A stretch of 26,284 nt of DNA, from the IMG/VR virus record IMGVR_UViG_3300006919_000373, positions 1 through 26,284 of that record. One strand, 5' to 3'. Every line of letters starts with the position of its first letter. Within the stretch, counting starts at the first letter, position 1. Shown here one piece after another: positions 4,448-25,177 of the stretch. Position numbers and translations under genes: made by a program. The notes beneath the pieces were generated by a model. The model saw nothing but the letters and a program-made list of their open reading frames with translations. It was not told the DNA's origin and searched no databases. The stretch is from a virus.

Positions 4448-6073
4448 ATGTATCTAAACGATTTAACAAGTGCCAAGCACAACGTAGAAAAACTAAATCG
4501 TATTCTAGCTGACAGTTTCAACCATGAGGTTGATCTATCAAGTATGAATATGGACAGTTTGAATCGTATGCTCAACACTACAGAAGCCAAAATGATGGCT
4601 ATTAAAGAAAGCGATTTAAAATACTGGGAGAATCCACAATACAACAAACTAGGACTCATCCAGCACCAACTTAAAACTTACATCAACGAAGTTGCTCCAA
4701 CACGTACAGATGGCCGTAAAATGAAAGCCAAAACTGAAAGTGTTGTAATGGAAGACGAGCTAGAACAAGCAGAAGTGCTACTAGCAGCTCAAGAGCTGGT
4801 TGATGAACTACAAAAAATGGTAGAAGACATTGCAGAAATGCAAGTACAAAAACTGATGCCAATTGTAGACGCAATGAAAGAGCAAGTGGGCTTTGAACAA
4901 GCAGAAGCATACAACAATGCAGTTGATGCAGCACTAGGTGCTCTACTAGATCAAAGCAAATCAGCCAAAGAATCAGTTGAAAATGCTACACTAGCAGCCA
5001 GAGGAGAAGCACCTGCTACTCCAATGCCAACAGACATGGGCATGGACGCAGAAGGTGACATGGATGTAGATGTAGACATGGGTGATGATTTTGACGGTGA
5101 TGATGCAGCCGCAGGCGAAGACAATGCAATTGGCAGAGAACTCAAAGGCGAAAGCGCAATTGCTGACATGGAAGGCAGTGCGTTAGCTGAAAAAAAGTTT
5201 CTAGAGAGTAAAGACAGGCTCTTTAAAATGGTTGAGAGTGGCCAAATGTCTCAAGAACATTTCATTAACGTAATCAATGAATTGACTGAAGATCCAACAG
5301 ATGCGGAACAAGTTAGTCTAAAACAAATGTTTGCAGCGGATGAATATATTGACAAGAAAAAGGCTGGCAAGCCTTGGTACTACAGTACTCCTGATGAAAA
5401 GGATTGGAGGAACGAGTTCAGGGCAAAATATAAAAATAATCCTTTAAAAAACTGGAAAACACAAGCTCCATTAGATGGTGGAATTCCACAAGGTACAACC
5501 AAAGGTGGTCCTAGCAAACTACGTCAAAGACAAATGGGCATGAAGGGTGCAGCACAAATGGCTCCGGCTCCAAAAGATTATTGGGCAGGTAGACCAAAGA
5601 CTAGACCAGACGGTACACCTTTTAATACTATGGCTCCGCCGCCAACAGGACCAGGCGGTGACGAAGCATTACCTAGATCAAAGCCTCAGCGTAGACCAAA
5701 GACTAGACCAGGCGGTGACAGAAAAATGGACAGTGACAATCGTGCAGCCAATCCAAATTACGGTACTGGAAAAGATGCAAAAGGCATGCCTTATCTATCA
5801 AAACCAAAACTAGGGGCGCTGCGAGCAATGACTACCGGTGAAATAGCAGCTAGAGATTATGGCGGTGATGTAAAAGGCGGTGAATTTGGCGGTATTATGG
5901 CAGATCCAGTAAAAAGAGTTGGAACTGGAACAGCTAAACCAGCAGGATTGGCAAATTTAAAAACACTGCCTGGAACAGCTAAACCAGCAGGATTGGCAAA
6001 TTTAAAAACACTGCCTGGCACAGCTTACCCAGCAGGAAAACTGAGAAAAATTGGCAGGTTGGGCTCAAAGTAA
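4448..6073 (+). CDS. Large acidic/repeat-containing protein, probable head or scaffold protein
   Basis: A 541-residue protein. Residues 1-185 are helical with coiled-coil character (EDELEQAEVLLAAQELVDEL region). Residues about 196-225 are an extreme Asp/Met/Gly stretch with many acidic residues. The region near 310-340 (KPWYYSTPDEKDW) looks like a conserved short domain. The C-terminal 170 residues are low-complexity, rich in Lys, Pro, Gly and Arg, with two RPKTRP repeats and a perfect 45-base duplication near the end. Acidic helical protein with a basic disordered tail fits a prohead core or internal head protein of a T4-like phage, but no named family is certain. It is directly followed by the next gene with no gap (TAA then ATG). 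Confidence 0.7.
   Translation: MYLNDLTSAKHNVEKLNRILADSFNHEVDLSSMNMDSLNRMLNTTEAKMMAIKESDLKYWENPQYNKLGLIQHQLKTYINEVAPTRTDGRKMKAKTESVVMEDELEQAEVLLAAQELVDELQKMVEDIAEMQVQKLMPIVDAMKEQVGFEQAEAYNNAVDAALGALLDQSKSAKESVENATLAARGEAPATPMPTDMGMDAEGDMDVDVDMGDDFDGDDAAAGEDNAIGRELKGESAIADMEGSALAEKKFLESKDRLFKMVESGQMSQEHFINVINELTEDPTDAEQVSLKQMFAADEYIDKKKAGKPWYYSTPDEKDWRNEFRAKYKNNPLKNWKTQAPLDGGIPQGTTKGGPSKLRQRQMGMKGAAQMAPAPKDYWAGRPKTRPDGTPFNTMAPPPTGPGGDEALPRSKPQRRPKTRPGGDRKMDSDNRAANPNYGTGKDAKGMPYLSKPKLGALRAMTTGEIAARDYGGDVKGGEFGGIMADPVKRVGTGTAKPAGLANLKTLPGTAKPAGLANLKTLPGTAYPAGKLRKIGRLGSK
5926..6037 (+). repeat. Perfect 45-base tandem duplication plus a partial third copy
   Basis: Units 5926-5970 and 5971-6015 are identical at all 45 bases and keep the frame, giving two copies of GTAKPAGLANLKTLP in the 541-residue protein. 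A degenerate third start, GTAYPAGKL, follows at 6016-6037. Perfect identity, including third codon positions, points to recent duplication by slippage or unequal recombination. Confidence 0.95.
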
Positions 6074-23243: not shown

Positions 23244-23763
23244 ATTTCAAAAAGTTGCACCTAAGCAACCTATAAACGAAAATATACAGCACAATACACT
23301 GAGAGTAGTCGGAGAAGATCAACAATTTGGAATTGTTAGTTTAGACCAGGCATTGGAATTAGCTAAACAACACCAAACAGACCTAGTAGTAATAAGTGAA
23401 AAAAGCGATCCGCCGGTAGCTAAACTATTAGATGCTAATAAATATTTCTACGAACAAAAAAGACGTGAAAAAGAAGCAGCTAAAAAACAGCGTGAAAATC
23501 AAATTGTAATCAAAGAAGTTCAGTTTAGATTGGGAATTGGTGATCATGATTTTGACATAAAACTCAAAAACATTGAAAAGTTTTTAAGCAAAGGCAACAA
23601 AGTAAAATGTGTAATACGATATAAAGGCAGAGAAAATGCCAATAAACAACAAGGGTTTGCGATAATTGATCGTATTACTGAAAGTCTAGAAAATACTGAC
23701 TGGGAAAGCAAGCCAAATCTAAATGGAAACCGATTAATCGGTGTACTAACGAGGAAAGAATGA
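23236..23763 (+). CDS. infC: Translation initiation factor IF-3
   Basis: A 175-residue IF-3. The N-domain (residues 12-70) includes PINENI, EDQQFGIVSLDQAL and DPPVAKLLDANKYFYEQ. The linker is lysine-rich (75-90). The C-domain (91-175) has IKEVQFRLGIGDHDFDIKLK, a GNKVKCVIRYKGREN core and a NGNRLIGVL ending, all strongly IF-3-like. IF-3 binds the 30S platform, blocks 50S joining and proof-reads the start codon and initiator tRNA. Phage copies are unusual. I chose ATG 23236; a GTG at 23227 would add MYL. It overlaps S21 by ATGA, implying stoichiometric expression. Confidence 0.95.
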   Translation: MRRFQKVAPKQPINENIQHNTLRVVGEDQQFGIVSLDQALELAKQHQTDLVVISEKSDPPVAKLLDANKYFYEQKRREKEAAKKQRENQIVIKEVQFRLGIGDHDFDIKLKNIEKFLSKGNKVKCVIRYKGRENANKQQGFAIIDRITESLENTDWESKPNLNGNRLIGVLTRKE

Positions 23764-23987: not shown

Positions 23988-23992
23988 AAAAG

Positions 23993-24022
23993 GTTGACAT
24001 TTGTGTCAACAAATACTATATT
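23993..24022 (+). promoter_or_regulatory. Strong sigma70-type promoter with operator-like dyad
   Basis: TTGACA (23994-23999) and TATATT (24017-24022) are 17 bases apart. The perfect dyad GTTGACA-TTTG-TGTCAAC (23993-24010) covers the -35 box. Transcription should begin near 24029. The downstream 500 bases encode no protein, so it drives the candidate structured RNA. Confidence 0.85.
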
Positions 24023-24028
24023 AAAAGC

Positions 24029-24475
24029 ATAACAAAGACGACGGTCTGAGTTAGATAGTGCAAGGAAACGCTGCTTACAGAGGCAGTAACTTGGCTAGTA
24101 GCTGTAGTGGCACTGCATGAGCCTGGAGACAGGAAGATGCAGATTTTGGAAGTAACTATCCAATGCTAGGCTTCGCTGGATATGGACAGGATCTGTGCTG
24201 GCGCTTGTGGGTAATCCTTAGTCCCACCTATCAAATATTATAGTGTTTTAATATACACACCAGAGTAGATGCACCTGCTTTCCTGTGCATAGGACAAGAG
24301 TTGAAAAACCGCAAGTGAGTGTGTATATTAAAGCGTTATGTATTGAACGCTTTGATCCGAACTGTAACAAGAAAGGAGACTCACTAGACAAGAATTATAG
24401 TGGGACGACTAGAAAAACAGAGAGAAGGGTTGCGCCGTAATACGCACGTTAGGGACCACGGTTAGTCCCTAGATA
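24029..24475 (+). ncRNA. Candidate large structured non-coding RNA
   Basis: About 450 bases behind a strong promoter with no open frame of useful length and many matching stems. They include CTGCTT/AGGCAG (24071-24086); CTGCAT/ATGCAG (24113-24142) enclosing CCTG-GAGA-CAGG with a GNRA tetraloop; TATCCA/TGGATA (24157-24182); GTGGG/CCCAC (24207-24227); a perfect 14-base-pair long-range stem, 24247-24260 with 24319-24332; inside it ATGCAC/GTGCAT (24269-24290); AGCGTT/AACGCT (24332-24351); CTCACTA/TAGTGGG, with one GU pair, near 24380-24405; and TAGGGAC/GTCCCTA (24450-24471). I could not match it to tmRNA, RNase P RNA, 6S or a group I intron. The 3' end is uncertain; it may be the last hairpin. 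Confidence 0.65.
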
Positions 24476-24479
24476 AATA
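24472..24479 (+). promoter_or_regulatory. Late-box-like sequence after the last hairpin (GATAAATA)
   Basis: GATAAATA directly follows the TAGGGAC hairpin. It may be a late promoter for the phasin-like/Hsp20 genes or a chance match. Confidence 0.35.
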
Positions 24480-24508
24480 AACTTGTAGATGCCAATAGGG
24501 TCTACGTA

Positions 24509-24516
24509 TATAAATC
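24509..24516 (+). promoter_or_regulatory. Probable late promoter box (TATAAATC) before the phasin-like gene
   Basis: TATAAATC ends 20 bases before the ATG at 24537, with AAAAGGAG between them. It differs from TATAAATA by one base. Confidence 0.45.
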
Positions 24517-24536
24517 TTGCTTAAAAGGAGATTGAC

Positions 24537-24734
24537 ATGCAAGCACAATATTTTAATAACCTTGTGGATCAAATCCACACACAAACAAAAACTTTCCTAA
24601 ACACAATTGATCCAAGTGAACAGTACACAAAGCCTGTTAAAGCTATGGCTGAAGCAAATACTGAATTTGCTAAAACTTGGGCAAACGCAACAGAATCAAT
24701 GACAACCGCATATACAGCGGCATTGAAAGCGTAA
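24537..24734 (+). CDS. Small phasin-like helical protein
   Basis: A 65-residue helical protein (FNNLVDQIHTQTKTFLNTID, then AEANTEFAKTWANATESMTT) with no charge clusters and repeated alanine/threonine heptads. Amphipathic helices of this kind and the length of the unit resemble phasins, which coat storage granules and also act as chaperone-like proteins. AAAAGGAG lies six bases before the ATG. It sits 11 bases upstream of Hsp20, which fits a stress or assembly pair. The phasin call is by resemblance only. Confidence 0.6.
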   Translation: MQAQYFNNLVDQIHTQTKTFLNTIDPSEQYTKPVKAMAEANTEFAKTWANATESMTTAYTAALKA

Positions 24735-24745
24735 GGAGAGAAGCT

Positions 24746-25177
24746 ATGAACAGATTAACTACATTAGACATTAACAAACTCACCCCTTATGCAGTAGGCT
24801 TTGATAGAGTATTTGACGATATGTTCAAATATGTACAACACAATGCCAATAGCACAGGTTATCCACCTTACAACATTGTTCGTGATGGTGACAAGTTTCA
24901 AATTGAAATTGCACTAGCAGGTATTGCCAAAGAAGATTTGGAAATCACTGTAGCAGAAGGTGTACTTACAATTGAACACAATCCAGAAGGCGAAGTTGAA
25001 CAACCAGGCTGGACATGGATCCACAAAGGCATCAGTCAGCGTAAGTTCAAACGTAACTTTACACTAGCAGATGATGTTGTGGTTAATGGTTCACGTATGG
25101 AAAATGGTATGTTGTTTATCGAACTAGAACGTATTATTCCAGAAGAGAAAAAACCACGTACTATTGAAATAAAATAA
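24746..25177 (+). CDS. Small heat-shock protein Hsp20 (IbpA-like)
   Basis: A 143-residue alpha-crystallin protein. The domain spans about residues 43-130: PPYNIVRDGDKFQIEIALAG, AKEDLEITVAEGVLTI, FKRNFTLADDVVVNG and NGMLFIELER. The C-terminal RTIEIK provides the I-x-I anchor. It holds unfolding proteins in a refoldable state, perhaps during virion assembly. Hsp20 is a frequent auxiliary gene of marine T4-like phages. ATG 24746 has AAGGAGAGA upstream; a longer frame from 24677 overlaps the previous gene and is unlikely. Confidence 0.93.
   Translation: MNRLTTLDINKLTPYAVGFDRVFDDMFKYVQHNANSTGYPPYNIVRDGDKFQIEIALAGIAKEDLEITVAEGVLTIEHNPEGEVEQPGWTWIHKGISQRKFKRNFTLADDVVVNGSRMENGMLFIELERIIPEEKKPRTIEIK

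Follow-up and report, generated by a model that had tools for sequence, protein, structure and literature searches.

A patchwork of structured RNA elements with a manA-lineage core upstream of Hsp20 in a marine T4-like phage

Results

Organization of the locus

The DNA analysed here (the window) is an IMG/VR virus record of 26,284 bases from a marine T4-like phage, in which the genes flanking the RNA of interest encode IF3, S21, Hsp20, ClpS and an IMP dehydrogenase/GMP reductase. Folding and covariation indicate that positions 23993-24475 hold strongly structured RNA (Table 1). The 172-kb record G001 carries the same locus (L002), identical to the window over 23990-24480 (491 bases), and a search of cultured phages for close DNA relatives of the window gave no match. 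The initial annotation had noted about 450 bases without a gene, and indeed no open reading frame of at least 60 amino acids lies in 23990-24480. The many stems it described are also borne out: the minimum free energy of the region is -132.5 kcal/mol, compared to -116.8 ± 6.2 kcal/mol for 100 dinucleotide shuffles (z = -2.5, with 0 of 100 shuffles as low), and many of the stems are backed by covariation as well as by folding.

GOLLD and ROOL are large structured phage non-coding RNAs, and the Rfam library holds families for both, as well as for tmRNA and RNase P. When the window was searched at gathering thresholds, no family reached its cut-off, these four included, and ARAGORN detected no tRNA or tmRNA in the window. 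Weak Rfam matches to let-7, Mu-gpT-DE, SNORD51 and others were treated as chance.

Table 1. Features of the RNA locus and of the genes behind it (window coordinates)
Feature	Position	Strand	Basis and remarks
Sigma-70 type promoter: -35 TTGACA (23994-23999), 17-nt spacer, -10 TATATT (24017-24022)	23994..24022	+	Sequence; predicted early/host-RNAP promoter of the RNA
7-bp dyad GTTGACA/TGTCAAC over the -35 box	23993..24010		Sequence; lineage-specific
manA-lineage RNA domain, helices P0-P8 and pseudoknot AGGAU/AUCCU	24033..24235	+	R1, 207.2 bits (the window itself is among the 35 training sequences of R1); RF01745; covariation
Module B, 16-bp closing helix around a 37-nt core (24263-24299)	24245..24334	+	Pattern scan, sequence
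Hairpin AAAGCGTT/AACGCTTT between B and C	24330..24353	+	Sequence; overlaps the B helix by five bases
Module C	24362..24420	+	Strict pattern, 9 stretches
Module D, short pseudoknot S0/S1 and hairpin S2 with loop CACGGUUA	24417..24471	+	R2, 68.3 bits (the window is one of the 31 training sequences of R2); covariation
T4-type late promoter element GATAAATA	24472..24479	+	Motif position; predicted start ~24485
ROSE-like thermometer: hairpin I GTAGATGCC-AATA-GGGTCTAC and anti-Shine-Dalgarno hairpin TCTTGCTT/AAGGAGA	24485..24533	+	ROSE_3, leader motifs
ORF65	24537..24734	+	'Phasin' of the initial annotation
Hsp20, IbpA-like small heat-shock protein	24746..25177	+	PF00011, E = 2.8e-18; phrog_432

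The near-consensus promoter proposed for the RNA is present and agrees with the consensus at 11 of 12 positions (scored on L002, which does not differ from the window here). A -35/-10 match of at least 10 of 12 bases was found in 21 of 21 nonredundant loci of the Hsp20 group, a non-random set picked via S21 and Hsp20, and in 12 of 12 cultured phages (10-12 bases each), compared to 1.0% of random 61-nt stretches. The annotated dyad GTTGACA-TTTG-TGTCAAC is likewise present; operator control as a common feature was rejected, however, since the dyad is not conserved among the promoters of relatives. A dyad of at least 6 bp overlapping the -35 box occurs in 4 of 18 distinct Hsp20-group promoters (shuffle mean 0.25) and in 2 of 50 others (0.375). 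Perfect dyads of 6-9 bp with differing letters also lie over the -35 box in L020, L222 and L223.

The manA-lineage domain

The first ~205 nt of the region had been taken as undescribed, but they belong to the manA lineage. In an Rfam search at an E-value threshold, all of RF01745 (model positions 1-192 of 192) aligned with 24034-24237 at 41.3 bits (E = 3.5e-9), which is below the curated cut-off of 55.2 bits. That cut-off was exceeded by 2 of 18 relatives searched at the same locus (L005, 75.6 bits; L020, 56 bits) and by 3 of 10 further relatives searched (L156, 69.2; L183, 60.5; L191, 60.1 bits). Among 26 whole records, some of them without the RNA, RF01745 matched 10 at E = 0.001 and only 2 above the cut-off; the manA lineage here is therefore divergent, and by its sequence 24033-24235 is identified as a divergent manA RNA. 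It shares with RF01745 the P1 strands GAUAG/CUAUC, a 5' hairpin with a GACG loop, a terminal hairpin and a suspected pseudoknot, as well as an occurrence in marine T4-like phages and, among other genes, before ibpA, as given by Weinberg et al. 2010 (PMC2864571). It differs from the published family in its score below the cut-off, in being joined to B, C and D, in the context of most relatives examined, which is that of a free-standing RNA, and in a pseudoknot that is now backed by covariation.

Covariation is strong in this domain. An alignment of 35 diverse relatives, from which L144, L177 and L187 (chance matches in coding sequence) and L182 (a broken copy) were left out, has 89.0% of its cells paired, compared to 68.7% when shuffled and 38.5-45.2% when slid, and 409 cells changed on both sides, compared to 135 and 58-105, respectively. 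Changes on both sides were seen in 42 of the 56 pairs. The GNRA hairpin nested in another stem, correctly described in the initial annotation, corresponds to P5b within P5 (CCTG-GAGA-CAGG inside CTGCAT/ATGCAG). The pattern with which manA was scanned for, giving at least 119 stretches, demands TAGTGCAAGGAA and TAACTTG, so that no variation in helix P2 or in part of P1 could appear.

The manA pseudoknot carries a question mark in Weinberg et al. 2010 (PMC2864571). Among the 35 relatives, all five of its pairs show changes on both sides and 74.4% of the cells are paired, with pairings such as AGGAU/AUCCU, GCUGAU/AUCAGU and AUGAUC/GAUCAU in individual sequences. By rule, the pairing is absent in 6 of the 35, and several others have only three pairs or pair elsewhere. 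The aligned sequences thus suggest that the pseudoknot is better supported in one subtype than in the other.

The R1 model, which was built without any cyanophage copy, nonetheless detected the full-length manA of the cyanophages S-SSM5 (E = 1.2e-14) and P-SSM4 (4.3e-13), and also the full-length copies of P-HM2, P-RSM4 and P-TIM68; the copy of HTVC008M was likewise detected over its full length, but weakly (E = 9e-5). A smaller R1 search detected those of P-SSM3, P-RSM6, P-HM1, metaG-MbCM1 and P-SSM2. R1 overlooks divergent copies, and four cultured copies were missed in a search of 42 records; the P-SSM7 copy was missed by R1 and detected by blastn. The record G018 has an RF01745 match of 39.3 bits at 65747-65924 on the minus strand (L282), away from the Hsp20 of that phage and missed by R1, which may represent another divergent branch of manA. 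In bacterial and archaeal genomes, the pattern matched five times, with two of the matches real by R1, and this manA subtype is therefore nearly confined to virus records. The two are L402 on a Marinifilum MAG contig (3925-4148, minus strand; 93.7 bits) and L404 on a gammaproteobacterial MAG contig (151.7 bits), perhaps phage contigs; by eye, a tRNA-like sequence directly follows the RNA in L402. Hypothetical-protein annotations overlie manA in P-SSM4 (164884-165057), P-HM1 (112705-112881), P-HM2 (4849-4953), S-SSM5 (116417-116623) and HTVC008M (4993-5163), and these proteins are probably non-genes.

Modules B, C and D

The long-range helix annotated as 14 bp is present, formed by 24245-24260 with 24319-24334, and by eye it is longer, with 16 pairs. 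It closes module B. The B core pattern was found in 28 stretches, in 15 of which (L384-L396, L398 and L399) it lies between ..CTCCACCA and ..GATGGGG of a permuted tmRNA; the 37-nt core of the window recurs letter for letter in 11 of these 15 loci, all in other marine phages. Searches with Rfam alpha_tmRNA and/or tmRNA_permuted confirmed 8 of the 8 B-carrying loci searched. B is thus not quite undescribed, as it has a known position as the intervening segment of permuted (alpha-type) tmRNA (RF01849/RF04321). The window itself lacks a tmRNA and has the intervening segment alone in common with these genes. Mature tmRNA is without such intervening segments (PMC11915505).

For C and D, Rfam gave no match, and the initial description of the RNA as undescribed holds for these two parts. 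The strict C pattern was found in nine stretches, all on Hsp20-group contigs, although the window's own C fails it. In L189, a C-like piece seems by eye to precede a terminator.

Module D was found in 94 stretches by pattern scan. Across 31 sequences, 90.6% of the cells are paired (at most 57.6% when slid) and 83 cells are changed on both sides (at most 14 when slid); since the set was filtered on four S2 pairs, only S0 and S1 provide independent covariation evidence, S1 with 96.0% of cells paired and S0, a weak helix, with 71.8%. A kissing loop CCGU/ACGG looked plausible by eye and was rejected, as it failed in relatives. In a search of 24 records, some chosen for holding D, the 17 matching records had one copy each except G045, which had two, and none was found in the four cultured phages searched. 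D lies upstream of Hsp20 in 35 of 39 Hsp20 loci; in L067 it precedes ClpS, with no Hsp20 found, and in L121 it lies behind Hsp20. Elsewhere, 27 of the 40 cases listed have a start codon 19-34 nt downstream of D, and the genes that follow it include a gp33-like late regulator (phrog_254) and a gp44-like clamp loader (phrog_168). Examples of D are L307, L308, L314, L317, L323 and L361; other small ORFs, without a PHROG match, lie behind it in L322 and L338. On this comparative evidence, we consider D a covarying, previously undescribed element of 45 nt that occurs in marine phages.

The modules are gained and lost separately. L096 carries the promoter with B, C and D but no manA, B is missing from L006 and L020, and L029 and L031-L036 are among the loci that have D and the thermometer without manA there. 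In an R1 search of 44 sources (43 Hsp20-group loci and the window), the RNA was present in 22. Because the pieces come and go independently, the region does not behave as one RNA. The view of the initial annotation that it is one undescribed large ornate RNA of the GOLLD or ROOL kind draws on its length, its number of stems and its low folding energy, but the homology to manA, the lack of a GOLLD or ROOL match, and modules that are smaller than those RNAs and have separate histories make this highly improbable. The region is instead a patchwork of a manA relative, a piece shared with phage tmRNA genes (B), C, a small undescribed element (D) and a probable heat-sensing switch. The initial annotation had thus picked out a real object and described its anatomy well, but the object is a mosaic whose core is known.

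Predicted late promoter and candidate thermometer before Hsp20

The stretch delimited in the initial annotation ended at 24475, short of the thermometer. The published cyanophage late promoter is NATAAATA (PMC2984593), and the element GATAAATA of the window conforms to it at promoter spacing. In each of the 24 leaders, ATAAATA or CTAAATA precedes hairpin I by exactly 5 nt, and a late transcript would therefore start at the thermometer. The plus strand of the window has 11 NATAAATA sites, 8 of them within 160 nt before a listed ORF; among the others, those at 2534 and 2997 are farther from an ORF and that at 23437 lies within IF3.

The matches of ROSE_3 (RF02523) to the window (21.8 bits, E = 0.044) and to the relative L005 (29.9 bits, E = 6.8e-5 in 121 nt) do not reach the cut-off of 43. 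All 24 leaders contain TCTTGCTT and AAGGAG, and in predicted folds the UYGCU strand pairs with the Shine-Dalgarno sequence of the small heat-shock operon. The distant Hsp20 leaders L027, L121 and L123 keep both hairpins, with compensating changes in hairpin I. Like known ROSE elements, this one lies directly before a small heat-shock operon and has a GAUGCC..GGGUC hairpin and a UUGCU anti-Shine-Dalgarno strand against AAGGAGA; unlike them, it is found in a phage, scores below the cut-off and has a late-promoter site at its 5' end. It is a probable heat-sensing switch before a heat-shock gene. No phage ROSE thermometer was found in the literature, as judged by titles and abstract openings.

The Hsp20 protein scored 117.7 bits against NCBIfam IbpA, under the cut-off of 212. 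ORF65 had no match in Pfam, PHROGs or NCBIfam, and its labelling as a phasin found no support there.

manA copies in related phages

The promoters, terminators and neighbours of manA were surveyed among R1 matches that are not truncated by a contig end and have at least 60 nt upstream; L182 and L187 were left out. Copies with identical flanks entered the count a single time, sequences related to one another are still among them, and neighbours were assigned by nearest-ORF rules, not gene calls. Among the matches listed, what follows 92 nonredundant copies is an MGRP-type gene in 44, the Hsp20/ROSE set in 20, an MPSF-type gene in 3 and another gene in 21, with the contig ending in 4. Outside the Hsp20 set, 58 of 71 copies among the matches listed have a promoter with at least 10 of 12 consensus bases (1.0% of 1383 random stretches), and 53 of 68 have an intrinsic terminator within 160 nt, 47 of them starting within 30 nt of the RNA end (1.4% of the random stretches). 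An earlier terminator count among the matches listed, which included three chance matches, gave 49 of 69 compared to 1-9 in shuffles. In the cultured phages, a terminator was found by rule in 4 of 12 copies, and by eye only P-HM1 and P-SSM7 have one directly at the RNA end; manA may have a leader role in these phages.

Ten non-Hsp20 copies among the matches listed are promoterless (score 6-8). L156, L183 and L191 lie immediately after a permuted tmRNA, identified by Rfam in the latter two; L192, L197 and L220 lie within tRNA clusters; and L142, L170 and L238 come after element D, with downstream open frames on the opposite strand that have no PHROG match. L149 (487-716) is a manA without a promoter match and without upstream D or tRNA, preceded by a different sequence in which inverted repeats are visible by eye. 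Arrays of stable RNAs were also observed, with D, permuted tmRNA and manA in series in L156 (5215-5830) and L183, while in L191 D is downstream of manA. By ARAGORN, 8 of the 79 non-ROSE copies listed have a tRNA or tmRNA within 700 nt (93 of 3000 random points, at 800 nt), a modest enrichment.

R1 matched once per record in 28 of 28 matching records of the 42 searched, where a single copy means one detected copy, since R1 overlooks divergent ones. Neighbours vary also within the larger records: in G001, an MGRP-type gene (34% identity) at 69 kb lies 50 kb from the RNA, which, like Hsp20, is located at 19 kb; in G040, 24 kb separate the RNA (28 kb) from Hsp20 (52 kb); and in G034 (256 kb), which carries the RNA, no match to Hsp20 was detected. 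In L182 (4199-4366), a late promoter and the MGRP gene come after a manA copy that is broken midway; the RNA can therefore be lost while the MGRP gene stays.

These surroundings bear on the published view of manA as a metabolite-sensing riboswitch that controls the next gene, in the window ORF65/Hsp20, by transcription termination. Weinberg et al. 2010 (PMC2864571) place manA mostly in possible 5' UTRs, that of ibpA included, and grade it 'Y' for cis-regulatory and 'y' for switch; it is still classed as cis-acting in a 2025 review (PMC12197685), and within the sources covered, which were available in part, nothing was found that departs from this label. Like many riboswitches, the RNA often has a terminator behind it, and the majority of the copies listed have a downstream mRNA on the same strand. 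However, an anti-terminator mechanism was rejected, as the terminator arm pairs with its own RNA no better than chance (4.96 nt compared to 4.86 nt in 48 loci). Moreover, a NATAAATA late site lies within 330 nt after the RNA in 48 of 65 non-Hsp20 copies among the matches listed (54 of 1021 random stretches, 5.3%), and copies occur among tRNAs, after tmRNA and before opposite-strand frames, with one detected copy per record, varying neighbours and no metabolic theme shared by the neighbours seen. In cultured phage P-TIM68, the gene annotated at manA is convergent with it. On balance, we regard a riboswitch as improbable. Given the promoter, the terminator and the changing neighbours, manA is most likely a free-standing RNA gene; from these sequence contexts, it is probably a phage RNA in its own right and not a riboswitch.

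The Hsp20 set differs in that a terminator was found in 0 of 21 copies, and there manA may therefore simply be a leader. The whole 500-nt leader of the window group could then be one cis-acting 5' UTR of the ORF65/Hsp20 operon, in which manA, B, C and D would serve the stability or the translation of the early mRNA and the ROSE hairpin would act as the final gate. This reading, which overlaps in part with our preferred explanation, fits the position of D before most Hsp20 genes and the loci in which the cassette remains with Hsp20 where S21 has moved (L010, L024 and L104). It is nevertheless rather unlikely, as several Hsp20 loci keep D and the thermometer without manA, a late-promoter site separates the RNA from the thermometer in all 24 leaders, and the same manA occurs elsewhere without an adjacent Hsp20. 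The latter is seen in L222, which differs from window positions 24028-24243 at 4 of 216 nt, including a compensating pair in P5 (24115 and 24140), and then has a terminator in place of B.

Discussion

The best explanation, and in our judgement a probable one, is that the locus is composite, with a free-standing manA RNA acting in trans, a late promoter and a ROSE-like thermometer. We hypothesize that early transcription begins near 24028, from the host-type sigma-70 promoter, and that the first 205 nt of the transcript fold as the manA-lineage RNA. In most related phage contigs examined, this RNA appears to be a separate gene, with its own promoter and with a terminator or tRNA/tmRNA neighbours, and it would most likely act in trans as a stable phage RNA. 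In the window group, where the terminator is missing and the RNA is joined to B, C and D, the early transcript might consequently continue into ORF65/Hsp20, or be cut at B-D, which would release the RNA. B and D are found elsewhere in or beside stable-RNA genes. The late promoter would start a second, short transcript at the thermometer, containing only the thermometer, ORF65 and Hsp20, and the thermometer is predicted to close the ribosome-binding site of ORF65/Hsp20 when cold and to open it when warm.

The initial annotation had raised a ribosome-directed role from the position beside S21 and IF3. As an argument this is weak, because it is Hsp20, not S21, that the RNA stays with (L010, L024, L093 and L104), but the idea is indirectly revived by the relatives that lie beside tmRNA and tRNA genes. 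The S21/IF3 gene set, together with these neighbours, gives a hint of a link between manA and translation. A precedent is provided by T4, which encodes stable RNAs of its own without known function.

A more detailed version of the preferred explanation can be offered as a tentative and doubtful proposal. manA would be a single-copy, trans-acting stable RNA of marine T4-like phages that functionally belongs to their tRNA/tmRNA set; in the window lineage its terminator would have been replaced by B and D, borrowed from stable-RNA genes, the early transcript would be cut into manA and an mRNA, and the late promoter and the ROSE element would gate Hsp20 by temperature. D would represent a new processing or regulatory class that also occurs before gp33, gp44, tmRNA and manA.

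The interest of the locus lies in the evidence from relatives on the manA core, in element D and in the phage thermometer. As far as a limited search of the literature, covering titles and abstract openings, shows, the heat-sensing leader would be new for a phage, and D offers a new covarying element for studies of RNA processing. manA has been an orphan riboswitch candidate since 2010; should it prove to be a free-standing RNA, attempts to find its ligand would be misdirected, and a widespread non-coding gene would be added to those of abundant ocean viruses.
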